Origin: a virus
Length of the DNA stretch: 35,825 nt
Reading direction: 5' to 3' (one strand)
IMG/VR virus record: IMGVR_UViG_3300042988_000731
Coordinates: 1-35,825 of that record
The notes beneath the pieces are model-generated. The model was not told the origin of the DNA and did no database searches. It saw only the letters and a program-made list of their open reading frames with translations. Of the stretch, positions 8,286 through 21,787 are shown piece after piece. The position numbers and the translations under genes are program-made. Numbering within the stretch: position 1 is the first letter of the stretch; every line of letters starts with the position of its first letter.

Positions 8286-10387
8286 TACTCACTCGCAATC
8301 GATGACCGTCCGTTAGCAGACGTTACTGTAAAACGCTTGTCGAACATTTCCTTGAATTCAGTCATGTGGTCAACAACCAGAATGAGCGTATCCTGTGCTG
8401 CAAGCTTGAGGAGGCCCATGGCTGCTTCCTTCTCCGCGATGCCCAAACCCTCAAAGCATTCATCTAGAACGAGCCAGCCTGGGCTGACTCCCGTCCTGGC
8501 AGAAATCACCTTACGGACAGCGAGGTCAACGGCTAGCTCTACCGCAGTAGCCATACCACCAGAGAGTGCGGTCTTAGGATTACGCTCGACGCCAGAAATA
8601 GTAACGAATGGCTGGATAGCCCGCTTGACCGTACCCTTGGCTGTAGCTGACTCTGACCTAAACCCTACCGTTACGTGAGCCACGTTTGGCACATGCGCGA
8701 GCATCTGGTTGGCGTTCCAGGCGATCTCTGTGAGGACTTCATCAAAGATGGCTGTAAGGAAGCTCTTGAGTAGCTCTAGGAAGTCCTGCTCGATATTAAG
8801 GGCGGATTGGGTGGCCTTGACCTTCTCCGTAGCTTCCGCAACCCGGGCCTTGGCAGCTTCTAGAGCCTTGGCATGTTTCTCTTTGTCCCTGGTGATGGTT
8901 TCATTTCGATACTCACACTCGCGCAGAGCCTTCTGGGCTGCGGTGACACCTTCCAGGGCCTTGTTGTGCTCGGCTGTCACCAGCTTTGAAACCTTGAGCA
9001 TACCGTCGTACTGGCTCTGGTAGATGTTGTTAATGGCATTGATTTGCTTCTGAGTGTTCAGGTTAACAACACTCACCATAGTCTCCCACTCCTTGACGGA
9101 AGTGTTAAACTTTTCCTGTAGAGTGCAAGACTCGCCAAACCGTTCAACATCGAGATTGTGAATCATCTCCTTAAACTGAGCAATCTTGGGGTCTACTTGA
9201 GCTAGTTTTGCCTTGTGATCAGCGAGAGTCGCATTCCACCCATCTCTAACTTGATGGGCATTGCGAGCCTTACGGATATCTTCTTCAAGCTCTGCGAGAT
9301 CCTCTTTGGCCTGCACCAAATCAGACTTTGATTCAATCCACGTTTGGAAACAGCGAGGGCACTGCTCGCCAGAAAGCTTCCAGATGTCCTCCTCAAGTTC
9401 CTTTTTCTGGACTTCAAGGGCTGGCAGGCTGGCGATGGCATATTCTGCCTTCTGGACTTCCTTCTCAGCGTCCTTGACAGCCGCTATCCAAATCTCTGCA
9501 CGCTCCTTCTCAGCAGCCTCAAGTTTGGCAAGCCGCGCCTTCCCCTGCTCGATAAGGACTTCAAGGTTGCCAATCTTGGCATTACGGGTGGGGGCAGTGA
9601 TCGGCTTGCTTTGTATTAGGTCGAGTAGCTGACCTTCTCCAATGGTTCGTTCTTTTTCAACCTCTGTTTTCCACTGAGTCTTGAGGCTCGCGATAGCTTC
9701 TTCGGTCTTTGCAACAGCAGCCTGCTGCGTATCGGCTAGAACGTGGGCATCGTGAAGAAGAAGTTTGAACGGCTTGGTATCTTCAATGTCAGGGAAACTT
9801 TCCAGATTGATGGTGGTGAAGTCAACCATTAGCTGGCTTTGAACGTCAACCAGATTGGCATACTTACCAACCAAATCCTTGACCTTCTCTCCGCTTGCTT
9901 CAATGGCCTCTTCAAATTTGCGGAGGCCCAGGAGGATGGTGAGAAATTCTTGAATCTCACTGTTGGTCTTGGAAAGAAAAAGACCCGGAGTCTTCTGGGG
10001 GCGATAAGTCAGGGCCGCTAGAAGGTCGGTATCCATGCCAAGTAGCTTAGGAAGCTCTGCGTTTACAGCGGACGCTCCCTTAATCATTCCACCCTTGTCG
10101 GTGGTCAAAGATGTTGTAGAACCGCGAGAGATAAATGCATCGCCCTCTTTGGTTCCAGTAAGGGATGCCGTAACACAGAGTGGTAGTTCCCCATACCAAG
10201 ACTTTAGTTCGGTGGCCGGATAGGGAGAGTATCCTAGGGCATAAGCAATACCCATAAGTACAGTAGATTTACCAGCCCCAGACGGCCCCTGAAACAACAC
10301 AAGCCCGGTGTCGGGGAAATAGATCGGAGTGGTCTGCTCAAACGACCGAAACCCCTGTAGGGTTAGCTGTGTTAATCGGATAGCCAT
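8285..10387 (-). CDS. sbcC: SbcC/Rad50-like SMC-type ATPase (700 aa)
   Basis: This is the ATPase subunit of an SbcCD/Mre11-Rad50-type nuclease complex (T4 gp46 counterpart), which processes DNA ends in recombination-dependent replication. The Walker A GPSGAGKST is near residue 34. Long coiled-coil arms surround a zinc hook CPRC near residue 343. The signature LSGGMATAVELAV is near 605, and Walker B WLVLDECFEGLG is near 638. I chose the ATG at 10387; the GTG just before it is also possible. No Shine-Dalgarno is visible, but TATACT ends exactly 6 nt before the ATG, so the mRNA may be leaderless. Its SbcD partner is not adjacent but lies at 16706 on the other arm. Confidence 0.95.
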   Translation of the reverse strand: MAIRLTQLTLQGFRSFEQTTPIYFPDTGLVLFQGPSGAGKSTVLMGIAYALGYSPYPATELKSWYGELPLCVTASLTGTKEGDAFISRGSTTSLTTDKGGMIKGASAVNAELPKLLGMDTDLLAALTYRPQKTPGLFLSKTNSEIQEFLTILLGLRKFEEAIEASGEKVKDLVGKYANLVDVQSQLMVDFTTINLESFPDIEDTKPFKLLLHDAHVLADTQQAAVAKTEEAIASLKTQWKTEVEKERTIGEGQLLDLIQSKPITAPTRNAKIGNLEVLIEQGKARLAKLEAAEKERAEIWIAAVKDAEKEVQKAEYAIASLPALEVQKKELEEDIWKLSGEQCPRCFQTWIESKSDLVQAKEDLAELEEDIRKARNAHQVRDGWNATLADHKAKLAQVDPKIAQFKEMIHNLDVERFGESCTLQEKFNTSVKEWETMVSVVNLNTQKQINAINNIYQSQYDGMLKVSKLVTAEHNKALEGVTAAQKALRECEYRNETITRDKEKHAKALEAAKARVAEATEKVKATQSALNIEQDFLELLKSFLTAIFDEVLTEIAWNANQMLAHVPNVAHVTVGFRSESATAKGTVKRAIQPFVTISGVERNPKTALSGGMATAVELAVDLAVRKVISARTGVSPGWLVLDECFEGLGIAEKEAAMGLLKLAAQDTLILVVDHMTEFKEMFDKRFTVTSANGRSSIASE

Positions 10388-10402: not shown

Positions 10403-10642
10403 TTAGATAACGCCCTTCTTGCCGTGTGCCATCTCGTCATGGATTTGTTCAGCATCGGCAAGACGTTCCACCCTCTTGACCATCACACCGTTATCCAGAG
10501 TCTCCGTTATACGTACAGTCGGAGGCTTTGGGCAACGCTGAGCGGTGGCTCCGCAGTTACAGTCGATGTAGGGAAGCTCCTTCGACAACAGGCGTCTGGT
10601 AACGAAGGAGCAAGCCTTACATTCGTAGAAGTAGATCGGCAT
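10403..10642 (-). CDS. FmdB-type zinc ribbon protein (79 aa)
   Basis: This 79-residue protein begins MPIYFYECKACSF, a near match to the MPIYEYxCxxCG start of the FmdB zinc-ribbon family. The ligand pairs are C8-x2-C11 and CNCG near residues 28-31. Family members are small putative regulatory proteins of largely unknown role. The start overlaps the chaperonin stop (TAATG), so it is translationally coupled to it. A link to chaperonin function is only positional. Confidence 0.82.
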   Translation of the reverse strand: MPIYFYECKACSFVTRRLLSKELPYIDCNCGATAQRCPKPPTVRITETLDNGVMVKRVERLADAEQIHDEMAHGKKGVI

Positions 10643-12480
10643 TAGATACGCTCGTCAGCCTCAGACCCGCTCTTGATATCACGTAGGAATGCGTTGTTCT
10701 CACGCGCCTCCGCTCGCTCAAAAGTCTCGTCACGCGGGAAGACGATGGCACCGCCAAGTGTACCCAGGAGGGTGGCGATTGAGAGACTGTTGCGGATTGC
10801 TTCTAGTACCGCAGGAGTCGAGTCCAAAATGCCGATTTCAATGGCATCGCCCCACTCGCTCTCAAGTGCGTCGAAGACTAACTTGTTGTCACTCTCAGCC
10901 ATCATCACGTTGAGGGTCTTGGTAATCTCTTCGTCGCCCCAACCCAGGTTCCGGTACAGGACGTAGAACGGCTCAAGTAGGGCCGGTGCTAGCACATCGT
11001 CCAGTACGTCGGTGACATCGGGAACGTCCTTGAACATCTCGTACCACTTCCGCGTAGGGCGAGGTCCGTTCCTGAACGGACGGTTTTTGATAGCCTTGGC
11101 AAGCTGGATAAGCATCCACCCACCACCCGGCAAGCAACCGCTCTCGATAGCCTTACGAACGGCCATGATAGCGTCTTCGGCACGGTCCCGGCGCTCACGT
11201 AGCTCGCCGTTGGATGAACCGATGACCTTAAGCTTCGCGATACCACCGGAGATACGACCGATACGCTCTTGTAGGTAGCTGGCCTCAAGGATTGAACCAG
11301 CCGATTGTGCGAGTTGCTTCTCAAGAATGTCTACGCGCTCAAGAATCAGAACCTCGTCACACTGACCAAGCACGGTAGAGCGGAACTTGGTGGCCTCAAA
11401 TGCATCGACGCCATGCCCAAGATCCGCAAGGTTAAGCTCCTCATGCGTCCTGGGAAGCGGGTTGTTGAGGGCATCGTAAATCTTGGCTCCGGTGACCGCC
11501 GACAGGTCAAGTAGGAAGTCATACTGGCTGTTGGGGATTGCATTCATGGGAGCGATGATCGGGTAGACGTTCAGTGTCTCAGCCGACATCCAGTTGGCAG
11601 CAAGCTGGCCTAGTACAGATTCGCTGAATCCAGTAGCGACCAGCACCACGTTGTGGTTAAATCCATCGGTTTGCCACGCCATACCGATGCGTTCCATGAT
11701 GAAGATGATTTGCTGGATATCAATAATCCGCCCGTGGACGAGGACGAAGACCGGCTTCTCCATGTAGACCCGCTGTGCTCCTGGGTCGTTGATGAACTTG
11801 TTGTAGAACCGTCCGCAGGAGTCTTCGTAGCCGCTGTTGATCGGATAGCCCTCGATGCGCTCCACTTCGTAGGCAGACGGGCCACTGATTTCGGTGATGG
11901 TGACATTGCCCCTATCTCCAACGAGTGCAAGAGCTTCCATGACCGCATCTGCAAGGGGTTCGTCGCCATTAGCAGATAACTTTGCGACATTGTGTAGCAT
12001 TTCCTTTCCTTCGTCGGTAGACGAATCGCACGGGATTGATTCAGCGGTGATGGTGGGTTCGATTACATCGCGGAAGTAAGCCTGTAGCTCGCGAATGACC
12101 CGCTGTGGGGAGACTTCGGGGTGAGCCTTAGTGTAGGCCGAAATGTTCTTGACAATGGAATAAGCTAGGATTGTCGCCGTAGTGGTACCATCACCGGCCT
12201 CATTGGCGGTACGGATTGAGGCATCCCGGGCAGACTCCATGATTGCGTGAGCAACCGGGTCTTGGAAACCAATTGACTTGAAGACGGTCACACCGTCCTT
12301 GGTTACGAAGTTGGGGATGTTGTGTTCCTGCCGTTCCAGTAGCACGCTGCTACCTCCCGGCCCCAGAGTCGCCCCTACCAGAGCGGAGATGGTCTGCATA
12401 GTGTTAAGCACCTTGGCCTCAAGGCTGCTTCCCTTGACCATCATCTCCTTGCCTGTTGACTTGACCTTCTTGGTTTCCAT
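10642..12480 (-). CDS. groEL: Phage-encoded GroEL-like chaperonin (612 aa)
   Basis: This is a group I-type chaperonin, an ATP-driven folding machine, here 612 residues against about 548 for Escherichia coli GroEL. The ATP-site motifs are present: ATLGPGG near 37-43, VTKDGVTV near 59-66 with the catalytic aspartate D62, and GDGTTTATILA near 96-106. The late equatorial motif RAEDAIMAVRKA and the following GCLPGGG match GroEL EDAL and VAGGG. The apical region is divergent, so clients and lid may differ. It probably folds phage proteins. It follows the wHTH gene by a TAATG overlap with AAAGG upstream. No GroES gene is adjacent; a GroES-like candidate sits at 16248. Chaperonins are known from some giant phages such as Pseudomonas phage EL. 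Confidence 0.95.
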   Translation of the reverse strand: METKKVKSTGKEMMVKGSSLEAKVLNTMQTISALVGATLGPGGSSVLLERQEHNIPNFVTKDGVTVFKSIGFQDPVAHAIMESARDASIRTANEAGDGTTTATILAYSIVKNISAYTKAHPEVSPQRVIRELQAYFRDVIEPTITAESIPCDSSTDEGKEMLHNVAKLSANGDEPLADAVMEALALVGDRGNVTITEISGPSAYEVERIEGYPINSGYEDSCGRFYNKFINDPGAQRVYMEKPVFVLVHGRIIDIQQIIFIMERIGMAWQTDGFNHNVVLVATGFSESVLGQLAANWMSAETLNVYPIIAPMNAIPNSQYDFLLDLSAVTGAKIYDALNNPLPRTHEELNLADLGHGVDAFEATKFRSTVLGQCDEVLILERVDILEKQLAQSAGSILEASYLQERIGRISGGIAKLKVIGSSNGELRERRDRAEDAIMAVRKAIESGCLPGGGWMLIQLAKAIKNRPFRNGPRPTRKWYEMFKDVPDVTDVLDDVLAPALLEPFYVLYRNLGWGDEEITKTLNVMMAESDNKLVFDALESEWGDAIEIGILDSTPAVLEAIRNSLSIATLLGTLGGAIVFPRDETFERAEARENNAFLRDIKSGSEADERI

Positions 12481-12818
12481 TACAGTACCTTTCCGTATCG
12501 TTCAATCTGATGTCGAGCAACCCCGATTTGACCGGGCTCGACGGTAAGAGTGCGTTGAACGCACCAACCAAAAACAGGGTGCTTGTATCGAGAGGAAGTC
12601 AAGTGAAAAATACCCTTGTCCTTCCAATACTTTAGATAACGTTTCGCGGTCCTGACGGGAACCTTACATAGAGCGGCAAGTTCCTGATCGGTTGGCGTAA
12701 ACGGCTTATCTGGGTGTTGTAGAAAGGTTGTTACCACGGTTGTTCGGAAGTCTTCTTTGCGAATCCGGCTAAACTCGACCTTCATCCGGGGTGCAAACTG
12801 GTTCCACTCTTGTCGCAT
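12480..12818 (-). CDS. Helix-turn-helix DNA-binding protein (112 aa), first gene of the leftward arm
   Basis: The start at 12818 (MRQEWNQFAPR) is chosen because AGGAG lies 5 nt upstream. The longer start at 12863 has no ribosome site and lies upstream of a candidate promoter. Residues about 45-80, with FTPTDQELAALCKVPVRTAK then RYLKYWKDKGIF, read as a winged helix-turn-helix, typical of replication initiators or transcription regulators. Being the first gene next to the divergent repeat region, it is the obvious candidate to bind the 15-mer repeats, either as autoregulator or origin-binding protein. That is inference from position. Its stop overlaps the chaperonin start as TAATG. Confidence 0.8.
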   Translation of the reverse strand: MRQEWNQFAPRMKVEFSRIRKEDFRTTVVTTFLQHPDKPFTPTDQELAALCKVPVRTAKRYLKYWKDKGIFHLTSSRYKHPVFGWCVQRTLTVEPGQIGVARHQIERYGKVL

Positions 12819-12834
12819 TACCTCTCCTGTGATC

Positions 12835-12842
12835 GGTATAGC
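12835..12842 (-). promoter_or_regulatory. Leftward promoter -10 (GCTATACC) of the divergent control region
   Basis: Minus-strand GCTATACC lies 16 nt before the ATG at 12818, with the AGGAGAGG ribosome site between. A weak -35-like TGGTCA sits 16 nt upstream. A copy of the 15-mer repeat (12873-12887) ends about 32 nt upstream of the hexamer, in the orientation GTATCGGGCCAGACC relative to transcription. Confidence 0.5.
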
Positions 12843-12872
12843 GTATCGATCCAAAATGACCATATGTTTTGG

Positions 12873-13043
12873 GGTCTGGCCCGATACCCAGCATATATGG
12901 GCTCGCGCAAGGGAGTGGCCCGATACGGGTTCTGAGGGTCTGGCCCGATACCCGCCCTATATGGCCCAATCTTATACCAATATGGTATTTACTATTAACC
13001 AATCTAGATCATAATAAGATTGGAGTCAGTATCGGGCCAGACC
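12873..13043. repeat. Divergent control region with repeated 15-mers and an AT-rich dyad
   Basis: The 15-mer GGTCTGGCCCGATAC occurs on the plus strand at 12873-12887 and 12937-12951, and inverted at 13029-13043. An 11-nt part of it lies at 12916-12926. The first two copies extend to 28-bp units (12873-12900, 12937-12964) that match at 25 positions and end in TATATGG. CCAATCTTAT follows the second copy (12966-12975) and, inverted, the third (13014-13023). These form a large imperfect dyad around an AT-rich core (12976-13013, about 74% A+T). ATACCA/TGGTAT is a smaller inverted repeat at 12974-12988. No gene fits here. Operators or activator sites for two divergent promoters, or a replication origin, would explain it. 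Confidence 0.85.
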
Positions 13044-13060
13044 GATCTTACAATTTCTCT

Positions 13061-13069
13061 TGCTATATC
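13061..13069 (+). promoter_or_regulatory. Rightward promoter, extended -10 TGCTATATC
   Basis: TGCTATATC lies 19 nt before the ATG at 13089, followed by AAGGAG. The inverted 15-mer repeat (13029-13043) ends 20 nt upstream of the hexamer, where a -35 or activator site would be. No TTGACA-like -35 is seen, so a repeat-binding activator or repressor could control it. Confidence 0.5.
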
Positions 13070-13088
13070 AAAGAGAAGGAGTGACAAC

Positions 13089-13706
13089 ATGCTAGTACGG
13101 TTCATTGGAGCACCCATTTCTGGAAAGACTACTGTTGCAGCGCAAGTGTTTGCTCAGCTTAAGCTTTCAGGACAGCCTAACGTAGAATTTGTCGTTGAGC
13201 AAGCTCGTTTATTCATCGCAGAACGTAAGTCCAATGGCCCAGAAGGACAGGAACTACCTCCCTTAACTGACGATGACCAGATGGCTATCCTCCTCAAGCA
13301 GATGAAGATGGAGGAGATCATGGAACATTCGGTTGGTAGAGATGGAATCGTAATCACTGATTCAAGCATCTTCAACTCCTTCTGGTACATGACCCCTTCT
13401 TTCCGGGATCACGCTTTTAACGACCCGATGGTTTACCATCATCTTGAAACCTACAAAGACCCACACAACCTTCTCTTCCTCTGTGCTCCTTTGCCTGTCA
13501 TGGTGCAATCAGATCGTAACCGGCTTCACAGCCCAAAGGATTCCAGACTGATACACGACAAGATCATGATCATGGTGAAGAACGAAGTGTTGGTTCGACA
13601 CCCGGTTATGCAGGTTGCTCACGATGTTTCCATCCCTTTGGGTGGCCCTAACTCATTCCGCGTTAATGAGGTGGTGCAGAAAATCTACGAGAAGCTAACG
13701 GAGTAA
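13089..13706 (+). CDS. P-loop NTPase, AAA_28/kinase-like (205 aa)
   Basis: This 205-residue protein begins MLVRFIGAPISGKTT, a Walker A GxxxxGKT at residues 7-14. Later, DGIVITDSSIFNS near 85-97 gives an acidic Walker B-like strand. The layout resembles the small AAA_28/NadR-type P-loop proteins or nucleotide kinases found in large phages. The substrate is not known. AAGGAG lies 8 nt before ATG, and the longer open frame back to 13020 would run over the promoter. It is the first gene of the rightward arm and is followed after one base by the helicase. Confidence 0.82.
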   Translation: MLVRFIGAPISGKTTVAAQVFAQLKLSGQPNVEFVVEQARLFIAERKSNGPEGQELPPLTDDDQMAILLKQMKMEEIMEHSVGRDGIVITDSSIFNSFWYMTPSFRDHAFNDPMVYHHLETYKDPHNLLFLCAPLPVMVQSDRNRLHSPKDSRLIHDKIMIMVKNEVLVRHPVMQVAHDVSIPLGGPNSFRVNEVVQKIYEKLTE

Positions 13707-13707
13707 C

Positions 13708-15162
13708 ATGATAATTTGGGATACCCCGACAACGGTTCGTTTTGTCGAGCAGGACGAGAAGAAGGCTGCTCTCGTTAGGACCGCTTTGACTTACACCAAC
13801 CGCTCTGTCGATTACCAGATCAGACGCCTCAAGAATGCTCGCTGGTTTGACGCCGAGAAGCAACAGGAGCATCTGGCTGAGCTACAGGAAGCTCGCAGGG
13901 TGTGCCTCCTCAACGAAGAGGGTGACTCGTTTACCACCTACGCTGGGTTGGCAACAAACGTTGACCAGATTCTTCATCAGGGAATCGAAAATCGTATCGT
14001 CTATCCTACTGCCCACACCGTACCTTGGGCAGAGGTCCCTCCACCCCTTCGACCGTACCAGCAAGAAACCGTAGACCTCTTCCTCGATAAGAAGCATGCA
14101 GCTGCTGAAATGGCAACTGGCCTTGGAAAGAGCTACGTCATCCTCCACTTAGCTAAGACCTTGGGGCTCAAGACTATTGTCATGGCTCCAACTACCTCGA
14201 TTGCGGACCAACTCTATGCCGACTTTATTCGTTTCCTGGGGAAAAAGTACGTGGGACGCTTCTATGGCGGAAAAAAGGAAAGTGGCAAGCTCTTTACGGT
14301 GGCTATCCATGCATCTCTGGCGAGGATCCCCTTGGATTCACCGGACTATCTGGCGTTCTCCAAGTCGCTCGTTTTCATTGCAGACGAGTCACACCTCACA
14401 CCGGCTGCCACGCTCAAGGAAGTCTGCCTTGGACTTTGTTCCTCTGCCCCCTACCGTTTCTTCCTCTCTGGAACACAGCTACGGGCTGATGGAAGCGATC
14501 TCCTTCTTCGCGGTATCACCGGACCAATTCTCAAAAAGATGACGGTAGCCGATGGAGTGGAACAGGGCTACCTAGCCGCTCCCAGGTTCCGCATCTTCCC
14601 GATGACTTCCTGCGACTCCTACGATTCTTCAGATCCTCTCAAGATGACCCAGCGGCATTTTTACTACAACCAAGCAATCATCCGTAAGGCCACCGCTCTT
14701 GTTAACTACGCTGTTACCCGCATGAACCACCAAGTTCTCATTGCCATCGATGAAATTGAACAGTTCCGCGACATCGCCCCTCACCTTACCGCTCAGTACA
14801 AATTCGCTCATGGCCCGATTACCAAAGCAAACGAAAAATTCGTTCCACCCGAACATCGCGATAGTGACACCACTAAGATCGTAGCCGAGTTTAACGCAGG
14901 TAAGTTCCCGGTCCTGATTGGAACGTCGGCAGTTGGCATGGGTACGGACATCCGTCCAGTTAAAACCATCGTCAACCTAACAGGAGGCAAGAGCGAGGTA
15001 CAGATCCGACAGCTAGTTGGACGAGGTACCCGCAAGGTCGAGGGCAAGACTGAGTGTATGGTGTTTGACTTTGATGTGGTCAACATTCCAATGCTCCACC
15101 GTCATGCCGAGGAGAGAGTAGGTGTCTACACAGACATCTATGACGATGTGGAGATGCTATGA
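13708..15162 (+). CDS. SF2 DNA/RNA helicase (484 aa)
   Basis: This is a superfamily 2 helicase of the DEAD/DEAH, UvsW-like type. LRPYQQE near 114-120 is the Q-like motif, ATGLGKS at 136-142 is Walker A, and IADESH near 225 is motif II. FLSGTQ is motif III, and QLVGRGTRK near 435 is motif VI. A roughly 110-residue N-terminal extension of unknown fold precedes the motor. It would unwind or remodel branched DNA or RNA in replication and recombination, as T4 UvsW does; the exact substrate is inferred. The gene overlaps the sigma-like gene downstream by 4 nt (ATGA), with GGAG in front of that start. Confidence 0.93.
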   Translation: MIIWDTPTTVRFVEQDEKKAALVRTALTYTNRSVDYQIRRLKNARWFDAEKQQEHLAELQEARRVCLLNEEGDSFTTYAGLATNVDQILHQGIENRIVYPTAHTVPWAEVPPPLRPYQQETVDLFLDKKHAAAEMATGLGKSYVILHLAKTLGLKTIVMAPTTSIADQLYADFIRFLGKKYVGRFYGGKKESGKLFTVAIHASLARIPLDSPDYLAFSKSLVFIADESHLTPAATLKEVCLGLCSSAPYRFFLSGTQLRADGSDLLLRGITGPILKKMTVADGVEQGYLAAPRFRIFPMTSCDSYDSSDPLKMTQRHFYYNQAIIRKATALVNYAVTRMNHQVLIAIDEIEQFRDIAPHLTAQYKFAHGPITKANEKFVPPEHRDSDTTKIVAEFNAGKFPVLIGTSAVGMGTDIRPVKTIVNLTGGKSEVQIRQLVGRGTRKVEGKTECMVFDFDVVNIPMLHRHAEERVGVYTDIYDDVEML

Positions 15163-16238
15163 AGCCCGGTCAGGATAACCACTTTAAGCTTTTTGCAGGA
15201 CAGCTAGAGAAGGCGATTGAAAAATACGGAAGTGTGGACGAGATCGTCATCGTAGAACGCCAGCGTAAGCAGGTAGAGAAGCTGGTGTCTCTAGAGCGAA
15301 AGTTTCGCCGTACCCTAGTTAACCATCCTTGGGGTCCTGGCGTCTACCGCTCGTTCATAAAGATGATCACAGAGGAGCGCGGAAACATTCTTGCCGCCCG
15401 TCCATTCTTCCGCGAGCGACAGGATGTGTTCACCGCTAAGATCAGCAAGGCTCTCCGCGACAAGAAAGAGAAGCGACTCTACCCTTTCGCTATCAACTAC
15501 CAGTTTGTAAGGTTTGTCATGGAGAGTCGTAACTGGAAGGGGAGCGGGATTGGTGGCAAGGTGGTCAAGCTAGCAGAGCAGATAGCCCTTTTACGCACTG
15601 AGCTTATCGAAATGAACATGCCCTTGGCAATCTCCCGGGCTCGCATCTTCTGGTCCCGCACTCCCAAGAGCCATCTGTCGTACATGGATCTTGTCCAGAT
15701 TTCCTGTGAGGGCCTGATGTCTGCGGTAGACAAGTTTGTCTTGCCGTACAGCAAGGTCTTCCGCTCTGTAGCTATCGGTCGCATCGTTGGTAACTTCATC
15801 GAGAGCTATTCTGAGACACTTGTTCATTTCTACCCCCAAGACAAACGGAAAATTTACCGGGCCAATAAAGGCATCTCCAAGCTATCGCCAGAGCGCGGAG
15901 ACAGCATCGATTTTTCCAAGCTGGCAGAAGAGGTAAATCGAGATGTCGAAGACAACCAAAAAACAAACCCCAACGAGCTTAGCCACCTCGTCGCAGCCGC
16001 ATCGCATGTTTCCACCGATGCCCCGAGTCCCGAAGAAGTCTCCGCTGGTAGCAGTGGTGCCGCTGGTGCCTCTTCTTCCGTTGATAAGTACGCAGCCGAA
16101 ATAACCTGTCAGCCCGACCATCAATACGAAACAGCGGAATTACAGACCGTCGTCCGAGCCGCCTACTCAGGCTTGACCCTTATAGAACAAAAGTTGCTTA
16201 GACTTCGGGGCATTGAGCTTACTGCGCTATACCAATAA
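15159..16238 (+). CDS. Sigma-70-like factor with region 2 but a truncated region 4 (359 aa)
   Basis: Residues about 145-226 read as sigma-70 region 2. EMNMPLAISRARIFW matches the region 2.1 helix, SYMDLVQISCEGLMSAVDKF matches the DLIQEGNIGLMKAVDKF core-binding motif, and an IGRIVGNFIESYSE helix follows. The first 145 residues are helical and unassigned. A Ser/Ala-rich linker (about 285-310) leads to LTLIEQKLLRLRGIEL at 339-354, which looks like the start of region 4.1, and the protein then stops without the -35-binding helix-turn-helix. The likely role is binding host RNA polymerase and recognising a -10-like element in phage promoters, comparable to T4 gp55. A partner that supplies region 4 is not identified. 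A GCTATACC motif overlaps its 3' end. Confidence 0.75.
   Translation: MKPGQDNHFKLFAGQLEKAIEKYGSVDEIVIVERQRKQVEKLVSLERKFRRTLVNHPWGPGVYRSFIKMITEERGNILAARPFFRERQDVFTAKISKALRDKKEKRLYPFAINYQFVRFVMESRNWKGSGIGGKVVKLAEQIALLRTELIEMNMPLAISRARIFWSRTPKSHLSYMDLVQISCEGLMSAVDKFVLPYSKVFRSVAIGRIVGNFIESYSETLVHFYPQDKRKIYRANKGISKLSPERGDSIDFSKLAEEVNRDVEDNQKTNPNELSHLVAAASHVSTDAPSPEEVSAGSSGAAGASSSVDKYAAEITCQPDHQYETAELQTVVRAAYSGLTLIEQKLLRLRGIELTALYQ
16226..16233 (+). promoter_or_regulatory. Possible internal -10 GCTATACC
   Basis: GCTATACC lies in the last codons of the sigma-like gene, 14 nt before the ATG of the GroES-like candidate, with AAGGAG between. It matches the motif at other gene starts, but being inside coding sequence it may be chance. 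Confidence 0.3.
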
Positions 16239-19826: not shown

Positions 19827-21787
19827 TGATTGAAGGACCGACACCAGAACAACTTGAGGCGGCGCTGTTTGTCCTCCCCGAGACTAAGGAAGACCTCCAC
19901 CAGTGGATTAGGGTCTATCTGGGTATTAACTTGCCCGCTGTCATTGTTGACCCGGATTCCAACTCTTCCCCAATGGACATGGTGTGGGAGCTTTACGATG
20001 CTGCCCGATTGAACAAGCCTGAGTACAGCCAAGTTCTAGCATACGCAGCCCGCGACTCCTTCAAGACCTTCTCAGCCGCCATCTTTGAAATGCTCTGCGT
20101 CGTCCTCCTGGGACGATCAGTAGCTCACATGGCCGCTATCGAGTCCCAGGCAAAGAAGAGTCAGCAGTACCTCAAGCGTCACATCAACCGCCCGTACATT
20201 CGTAAATTCGTTACGGTCAAGAACGAGCGGTTCGTTGAGATCACCCGATACCACAACGCTGTTACTGGGCGCAACTTGACCACCGAAGAATTTGCTGGCC
20301 TCCTAGCAGCCGACCAAGCAAGCTACGAGGAAATCAAACACTACGTCACCATCGTTATTTGTACCATCGCCGGTGCTAACTCAGAACACGTACCGGTAAT
20401 GATCGTGGACGAAGTTGACGTTGTGGAAAACCCGGACGCTTACGAAGAAGCGAAGATGATTCCCGCACCTATGAACGGGAAGATGCCCATCACCCTTTAC
20501 ACCTCTACCCGTAAGTATTCCTACGGACTTGTCCAGAAGGAAATCGACCAGCAGGCAGAAACGGGCCTGCTCATTCGCCACTGGAACCTAATCGATGTCA
20601 CCCACCCATGCCCTTCCTTCCGACACCAGCCCGAAAAGGAAAAGATCAAGGTTTGGTACAACGACGAGTCTCTCAAGACCATTTCCGACGCTGACTACAA
20701 CCTCTTTGACCAAGTAGAGAAGGACAAGTGGCATGAAGATGAAGCCTACTACGGCTGCCTTCACAACTGCCGCCTCTTCGCCATGTGCCGTGGTCGCTTG
20801 GCTACCAAAACTGTCTGCCCCCGCTGCGACGGGAACGGAGTAAACTGCGGCGGTTTCCTCAAGCCGGTCGAACACACTCAAAACGTGTTCCGCAAGGTGA
20901 CCATTGACAAGGCCCAGGCTCAGCTACTCTGCCGCAAGCCCTCGACTCAGGGGTTGATCTACCCCAATTTCAACCGCGATACCCACATGAAGACCGCCGC
21001 CGACATGGCGTTCATCATCGATGGCGAGAAGCGCAAGGACTCCTTCTCCAAGAGCGACCTCATAGCGTTGCTCAAGGAGCGAGGGGCGCGTTTTGTGGCC
21101 GGTATCGACCATGGATTCAGTCACAACTTTGTCGTCGTCCTGGGGGCCATTTACGGCCAACGGCTCTATATCTTCGATGTCATCGCCCAGGCTGAGTTAG
21201 AGCTATCTCAAAAGGTCGAAATCTGCCTACAGCGAGTTTCCCCGCACGATCCAGAGGTCTGGGCCGATACGGAAGCTCCCGGAGACAACAAAACCCTTAA
21301 GAAAGACGCCCATTTACGTATCAAGGAGTGGGTAAAAGGCAAGGGATCGGTCATCGACGGCATTTCTTTGGTCCGTCTAGCCATCATGCCCGCTCTTGGC
21401 AAGGCAGAAGATGTCCGATTGTACCTTTTGAAGAACGATGAAGGCTGCGATCACCTTGCCCAGCGCATTTCTACGTATCACTGGGTCGTAGATGCGGCTG
21501 GACGCCTCACCAAAGAGCCCGATGACGAGGATGATGACGAGTGCGATGCCCTCAGATACCTCGTAATGAACGCCATGTCTATCAAAATGAAGGCATCGGT
21601 GAGCGAAGTGGACCGATTGGGTGACCAAAGCAAGCGGGAACCTCTCCAAGAGGGCAAAAAACAGTACAATCTCAATACGTGGATGCAGCAAATCATCGTA
21701 GAGCGCACCGGAATCGACTATGACGGTGAAGTAGTCGATGAAGGGCCAAAAGTGGGCGGAAAGGGCTCATTCAATTGGAATTTCTAG
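19826..21787 (+). CDS. terL: Terminase large subunit with a zinc-binding insertion (653 aa)
   Basis: This is the packaging motor ATPase and nuclease. The Walker A is the atypical ARDSFKT at residues 75-81, and VMIVDEVDVVE near 191 is Walker B plus the catalytic Glu. The RNase H-like nuclease has FVAGIDHGFSH near 424, WADTEAPGD near 474 and DDDECDALRYLV near 570 as the three acidic clusters. Between the two domains, about residues 310-350, an insertion contains seven cysteines (GCLHNCRLFAMCRG, then CPRCDGNGVNC) and probably binds zinc. At 653 residues it is longer than most TerL proteins, partly due to this insertion. It ends in TAG. Confidence 0.94.
   Translation: MIEGPTPEQLEAALFVLPETKEDLHQWIRVYLGINLPAVIVDPDSNSSPMDMVWELYDAARLNKPEYSQVLAYAARDSFKTFSAAIFEMLCVVLLGRSVAHMAAIESQAKKSQQYLKRHINRPYIRKFVTVKNERFVEITRYHNAVTGRNLTTEEFAGLLAADQASYEEIKHYVTIVICTIAGANSEHVPVMIVDEVDVVENPDAYEEAKMIPAPMNGKMPITLYTSTRKYSYGLVQKEIDQQAETGLLIRHWNLIDVTHPCPSFRHQPEKEKIKVWYNDESLKTISDADYNLFDQVEKDKWHEDEAYYGCLHNCRLFAMCRGRLATKTVCPRCDGNGVNCGGFLKPVEHTQNVFRKVTIDKAQAQLLCRKPSTQGLIYPNFNRDTHMKTAADMAFIIDGEKRKDSFSKSDLIALLKERGARFVAGIDHGFSHNFVVVLGAIYGQRLYIFDVIAQAELELSQKVEICLQRVSPHDPEVWADTEAPGDNKTLKKDAHLRIKEWVKGKGSVIDGISLVRLAIMPALGKAEDVRLYLLKNDEGCDHLAQRISTYHWVVDAAGRLTKEPDDEDDDECDALRYLVMNAMSIKMKASVSEVDRLGDQSKREPLQEGKKQYNLNTWMQQIIVERTGIDYDGEVVDEGPKVGGKGSFNWNF

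Follow-up and report, generated by a model that had tools for sequence, protein, structure and literature searches.

Introduction

In iteron plasmid origins of the RepA/RepE type, the initiator gene is adjoined by direct repeats and an A+T-rich unwinding element. At ori-lambda, initiator-bound iterons are located beside an A+T-rich tract, the initiator gene lies at the origin, and nearby transcription influences initiation (PMC7466680, PMC3985674). The PLE satellites of phage ICP1 have a RepA_N initiator and three iterons of ~30 bp, and the DNA-binding domain of the initiator and the iterons vary together while the rest is conserved (PMC7145576, PMC8263062). Iteron origins, and the joint exchange of initiator and iterons in the ICP1 satellites (PMC8263062), are well known. 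The published genome note on Myxococcus phage Mx1 describes a closed-circle assembly with no terminus reported and does not mention an origin (PMC10720576), and no description of an origin for an Mx1-like family was found in the part of the literature searched, this genome note included.

Here, a virus record of 35,825 nt (IMG/VR IMGVR_UViG_3300042988_000731, analysed over its full length and called the window) was examined around the intergenic region between its two divergent gene arms. The interval ~12835-13070 is probably a bidirectional (theta) origin of an Mx1-like phage, with iterons for a phage winged-helix (wHTH) protein, a melting core and divergent promoters. It resembles ori-lambda in having iterons beside an A+T-rich tract, a candidate initiator gene at the origin and promoters nearby, and the repeats of one relative (L019) are dyads, as the lambda iterons are. 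However, the lambda origin lies inside gene O with four 18-19-bp iterons, whereas the repeats of the window are 15 nt long (three exact and one partial) and intergenic, placed between the divergent genes to the left and right of the core, and no single repeat is a palindrome; its wHTH protein also has no O-like C-terminal partner-binding domain. The region would work like ori-lambda or the plasmid iteron origins, yet it does not belong to the lambda type, because the position and the initiator domain of ori-lambda are absent here. Compared with plasmid iteron origins, the repeats are fewer, partly inverted and placed inside a large phage between divergent arms. The likeness to the PLE system lies in a trio of relatives (L023, L052 and L071) sharing both wHTH type and motif, but a RepA_N protein was not identified here, and host, size and element type differ. 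Mx1 has in common with the window the flanking gene order, matched divergent promoter sequences and inverted 13-mers (ATTAACGTCCCAT) around an A+T-rich stretch in its intergenic region, but its repeat sequence is unrelated to that of the window.

The window derives from an Mx1-like phage

Protein identity to Mx1 is ~45% and the gene order is common to both, the window being a fragment of an Mx1 relative. Its genes include those for a GroEL-like chaperonin, SbcC- and SbcD-like proteins, an SF2 helicase, a sigma-like protein, a terminase and a portal protein. The single relative of the window terminase among 50,697 phage records was Mx1, and identity to Mx1 was 44-49% in the terminase, GroEL, helicase and sigma-like protein and 37% in the kinase. 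In both phages, GroEL and a small HTH gene run leftward, and kinase, helicase, sigma-like protein and terminase run rightward; the window thus carries the syntenic block of GroEL, divergent intergenic region, kinase, helicase, sigma-like protein and terminase that marks the Mx1-like lineage. The sigma-factor-like gene at 15159-16238 is conserved with Mx1 and most relatives.

Relatives were gathered by a terminase-profile scan (62 loci) and a helicase-profile scan (60 loci), the contigs of which partly overlap. No relatives were found by single-protein scans with the wHTH, kinase and GroEL, by blastn against phage genomes or by a terminase scan of bacterial genomes.

Features of the divergent intergenic region and its flanking genes. 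Positions are those of the window, and the basis of each assignment is given in brackets.

10642..12480, minus strand: GroEL-like chaperonin, second gene of the left arm (Cpn60_TCP1, E 3e-43; 48.7% identical to Mx1 GroEL)
12480..12818, minus strand: wHTH gene, first of the left arm; proposed iteron binder/initiator (weak, sub-threshold Pfam matches; AlphaFold model; slot in relatives)
12835..12842, minus strand: left-arm -10, GCTATACC on the minus strand (sequence; twin GCTAT-type promoter sequences in relatives)
12873..12887, plus strand: putative iteron 1, GGTCTGGCCCGATAC, exact (sequence repeat search)
12912..12926, plus strand: putative iteron 2, partial copy with 2 mismatches (sequence repeat search)
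12937..12951, plus strand: putative iteron 3, exact; with iteron 1 in a 29-nt, 90% repeat ending TATATGG
12966..12975, plus strand: inner inverted repeat, left arm, CCAATCTTAT
12976..13013, no strand: A+T-rich core, proposed DNA unwinding element (the least stable 38-nt stretch begins at 12979)
13014..13023, minus strand: inner inverted repeat, right arm; the plus strand reads ATAAGATTGG
13029..13043, minus strand: putative iteron 4, exact inverted copy
13061..13069, plus strand: right-arm extended -10, TGCTATATC (sequence; similar TGCTATA sites upstream of other window genes)
13089..13706, plus strand: AAA_28 nucleotide kinase, first gene of the right arm (37% identical to Mx1)
13708..15162, plus strand: SF2 DNA helicase, right arm (profile match; 44% identical to Mx1)
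15159..16238, plus strand: sigma-factor-like protein, right arm (phrog_351, E 3e-6; 44% identical to the Mx1 putative sigma factor)

Repeats flank the least stable DNA of the window

The initial annotation described a 15-mer occurring twice in direct and once in inverted orientation, with a partial copy, and an inward-facing dyad around a 38-nt core of about 74% A+T. The repeat search recovered all of these elements: the exact copies start at 12873, 12937 and 13029, the copy with two mismatches starts at 12912, and CCAATCTTAT and its complement bracket the ~74% A+T core within 12966-13023. Both exact direct copies extend into a 29-nt repeat of 90% identity, GGGTCTGGCCCGATACCCnnCnTATATGG, at 12872 and 12936. 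The 270-bp intergenic region scored 91 for exact repeats of at least 10 nt, against a mean of 4.8 in 300 dinucleotide shuffles of the same region, none of which equalled it (0/300). Within the 35.8-kb window, this region is the top 300-bp repeat cluster, and the core has the lowest duplex stability of any 38- or 60-bp stretch. Multiple short non-coding copies are thus grouped at one place, as in an iteron origin, and the least stable DNA adjoins them, as an unwinding element would, melting itself being a prediction.

By the same annotation, many scattered in-gene copies of the 15-mer would have counted against a role of the region; these were not seen, and the scan found a lone copy with one mismatch, at 21256 inside the terminase gene, which is probably a chance occurrence. 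The 11-base core word TGGCCCGATAC has no further occurrence in the record, and an Rfam search matched no family. An exact scan of viral contigs for two nearby TGGCCCGATAC copies returned only the pentapeptide-repeat gene of L007, which was set aside as a coincidence.

Matched promoters face outward from the region

The nearest repeat lies 32 nt (left) and 20 nt (right) from the -10 of each arm, the spacing originally proposed. Matched divergent promoters for both arms, also part of that proposal, are supported as well by twin promoter sequences in relatives: in Mx1, L054, L032 and L026, promoter sequences were matched between the two arms, and in Mx1 CTCGCTATTAGA precedes both start codons. 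The sequence of the right promoter suggests an extended -10, a form present upstream of several other window genes. Control of both arms of the window by one protein is plausible on this arrangement. GCTATA was also considered as a phage-specific promoter word and dropped, as it is not enriched and seems to belong to a normal extended -10 element.

At the divergence point of L145, L156, L170, L173, L033, L018, L155 and L160, short inverted pairs (CCTATAGCGAAC / GTTCGCTATAGG, for example) look like matched outward-facing -10 promoters.

The gene beside the repeats encodes a small winged-helix protein

Read from the ATG at 12818, which is preceded by a good ribosome-binding site, the first left-arm gene encodes a protein of 112 aa. 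Its matches to Pfam HTH_23/HTH_Crp_2 were weak and sub-threshold, its own PHROG match was insignificant, and Pfam/PHROG profile searches gave no O-family match at a significant level. The AlphaFold model (pLDDT 81) showed a winged helix flanked by long helices at both termini, and no obvious helicase-loading domain was present beside these elements. Fold searches returned generic winged helices, with likenesses to the CRP, MarR and BusR regulators and, among the weak matches, to wHTH centromere-binding proteins (AspA, pNOB8); no initiator family stood out.

While the family matches of the window protein are insignificant, clear initiators occupy the same slot in relatives. The gene opening the left arm is a wHTH gene in many related contigs, and the slot is filled by a PHROG replication-initiation or primosomal protein in L018, L030, L047, L069, L151, L156, L170 and L173. 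A DnaB-type helicase is the next gene in L018 and L145, the two contigs tested. Other relatives have a wHTH of 72-122 aa with, where any, weak profile matches to initiators, DnaD-like loaders or generic regulators; the small wHTHs of Mx1, L052 and L153 weakly match initiator or DnaD-loader profiles. In more distant, A+T-rich members, GroEL itself is first in the left arm. An initiator-related role of the window wHTH is likely from this gene context, and the 112-aa protein is the most likely candidate for the iteron binder.

Relatives carry repeats of their own at the divergence point

The 15-mer of the window has no copy in the Mx1 stretch holding the region, where Mx1 has repeats of its own, in three or more copies. 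Beyond Mx1, 13 contigs (L054, L015, L023, L052, L071, L019, L032, L047, L153, L154, L158, L179 and L180) have their own repeats of 12-23 nt in 3-6 copies at the divergence point, and L156 has a repeat present as a pair. The repeats of Mx1 and the 13 contigs are mostly unlike those of the window, and no near copy of the relatives' motifs was found elsewhere in the fetched loci. In L019 (=L159), the units are dyads, TCACTTCGGCCATTCCGAAGTGA, in three close copies and an opposed partial one, ~33 nt apart. In the near-complete genomes of L052 and L071, the divergence-point cluster is the strongest repeat cluster in ~168 kb. A clear motif in common was seen only in the trio L023/L052/L071, the wHTHs of which share, by eye, the segment GLKPRMVR; between the window and L054, its nearest relative, the likeness of the motifs reached no more than a suggestive level (shuffle P 0.06). 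No repeats were found at the divergence point of L021, L026, L069 and L042. The divergence region of L027 (4737-4972; contig shared with L185) holds a 78-bp tandem unit in about three copies.

Strand composition switches at the divergence point

Cumulative GC skew of the 169.6-kb Mx1 circle has its minimum at the divergence and its maximum ~90 kb away. Raw, uncorrected GC skew clearly supported the divergence point only in Mx1; owing to confounding by gene strand, raw GC/AT skew gave a mixed picture in the metagenomic genomes, and a strand-corrected test was used instead. For eight near-complete genomes (160-182 kb), third-position skew was regressed on coding strand and replichore; since genes also run outward from the divergence point, the coding-strand effect was removed by this regression. 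The null came from rotating the assumed origin at random, a procedure that keeps autocorrelation intact.

The GC3 replichore effect at the divergence point was positive in 7 of the 8 genomes, with a summed t of 21-22 against a rotation SD of ~6.5 (P ~1e-4 or less). Long open frames served as genes here, every record except that of Mx1 is metagenomic and was handled as a circle, and the genomes are not independent. P remained at or below 0.0012 on dropping any one genome, and the mean GC3 profile of the eight genomes peaked at offset 0. The sign was opposite in L047 and the effect weak in L052 and L071; AT3 skew was weaker (P 0.03-0.09). The resolution of these tests is kilobases, against a region of 170 bp, and the window alone is too short for an informative skew comparison. 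At this kilobase resolution, the eight genomes show the switch in strand composition that goes with an iteron origin, and the GC3 skew fits bidirectional replication from the divergence point.

A proposed origin and its alternatives

A replication origin was one of two options in the initial annotation, and it is now supported by the GC3 skew of eight genomes, the initiators in the slot of relatives and the repeats with the least stable DNA. In the proposed mechanism, the 15-nt repeats would be iterons, bound by a phage-encoded winged-helix protein that is most likely the product of the first left-arm gene (or by a partner initiator). Bound to the direct and inverted copies flanking the core, the protein would distort the DNA so that the A+T-rich core opens for loading of the replicative helicase in both directions; replication would start in this interval rather than within a few kb of it. 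Transcription of both arms would begin at the divergent promoters, which may also help the core to open, much as transcription contributes at ori-lambda (PMC3985674). Because a repeat site sits just upstream of each -10, the iteron-binding protein may also regulate both promoters.

The same position of the repeats, the matched promoters of both arms in Mx1 and the contigs named with it, and the likeness of the fold to CRP, MarR and BusR would also suit a pure transcriptional switch, with the repeats as wHTH operators (for repression or activation) coordinating divergent early operons and replication starting elsewhere, perhaps within a few kb. This account is rather unlikely: several copies together with the least stable DNA exceed the needs of two operators, initiators occupy the slot in relatives, and the replication-strand signal is centred at the region. 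That signal, with skew switching here, also argues against a packaging (pac/cos) or recombination site. Repeats can abound in the packaging regions of phages, and the large terminase gene lies ~7 kb downstream of the repeats in the same (right) arm, but it is adjacent to them neither in the window nor in Mx1, the adjacent gene being an HTH or initiator gene instead; with Mx1 assembled as a closed circle and no terminus reported (PMC10720576), this explanation is improbable.

A centromere-like partition site bound by the wHTH, to which the weak fold matches to centromere-binding proteins (AspA, pNOB8) could point, is more improbable still, as no ParA-type gene was noticed beside the region, either in the window or in the annotation of Mx1. 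For chance repeats lacking a function, it can be said only that short two-copy repeats are common; with no shuffle reaching the repeat content and the architecture kept in relatives, the probability of this is very slight.

Variation of the initiator slot

The bidirectional origin might in addition be an exchangeable module throughout the phage family, a tentative reading in which gene order is kept and the iterons and DNA-binding protein are replaced together. Some lineages would then use a bare 72-122-aa wHTH as a minimal initiator lacking a helicase-loading domain, and others O-like or primosomal proteins with a DnaB-type helicase. If the origin assignment is true, the location of the origin becomes predictable in a large-phage family known mainly from metagenomes, with Mx1 as a cultured member. 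The pairs of motif and wHTH in a fixed genomic context would be a natural series for studying joint change of initiator and origin, and the same series would bear on whether a lone wHTH can start replication.

Several proteins near the divergence point showed further features. The Mx1 HTH gene WNM70306.1 (L008:8904-9272; Mx1 record 168903-169271) seems to be annotated too short, as its open frame runs to an ATG at 9272 and the longer frame of 122 aa has a complete winged helix. The wHTHs at L023:2086-2724 and L153:178-885 have an extra N-terminal part of ~90-120 aa, which by eye resembles a GIY-YIG nuclease (IYGLVDP...RYVG; VFYVGS) and gave no Pfam or PHROG match; if this reading is right, it would recall an origin-directed nuclease. 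In L026 (3720-4343), two tandem wHTH domains are apparent in the first left-arm protein. The left-arm GroEL-like frame of L147 is 948 aa long and ends at 2928, ~350 aa longer than in relatives, and looks by eye to hold an intein start after the conserved GDG.
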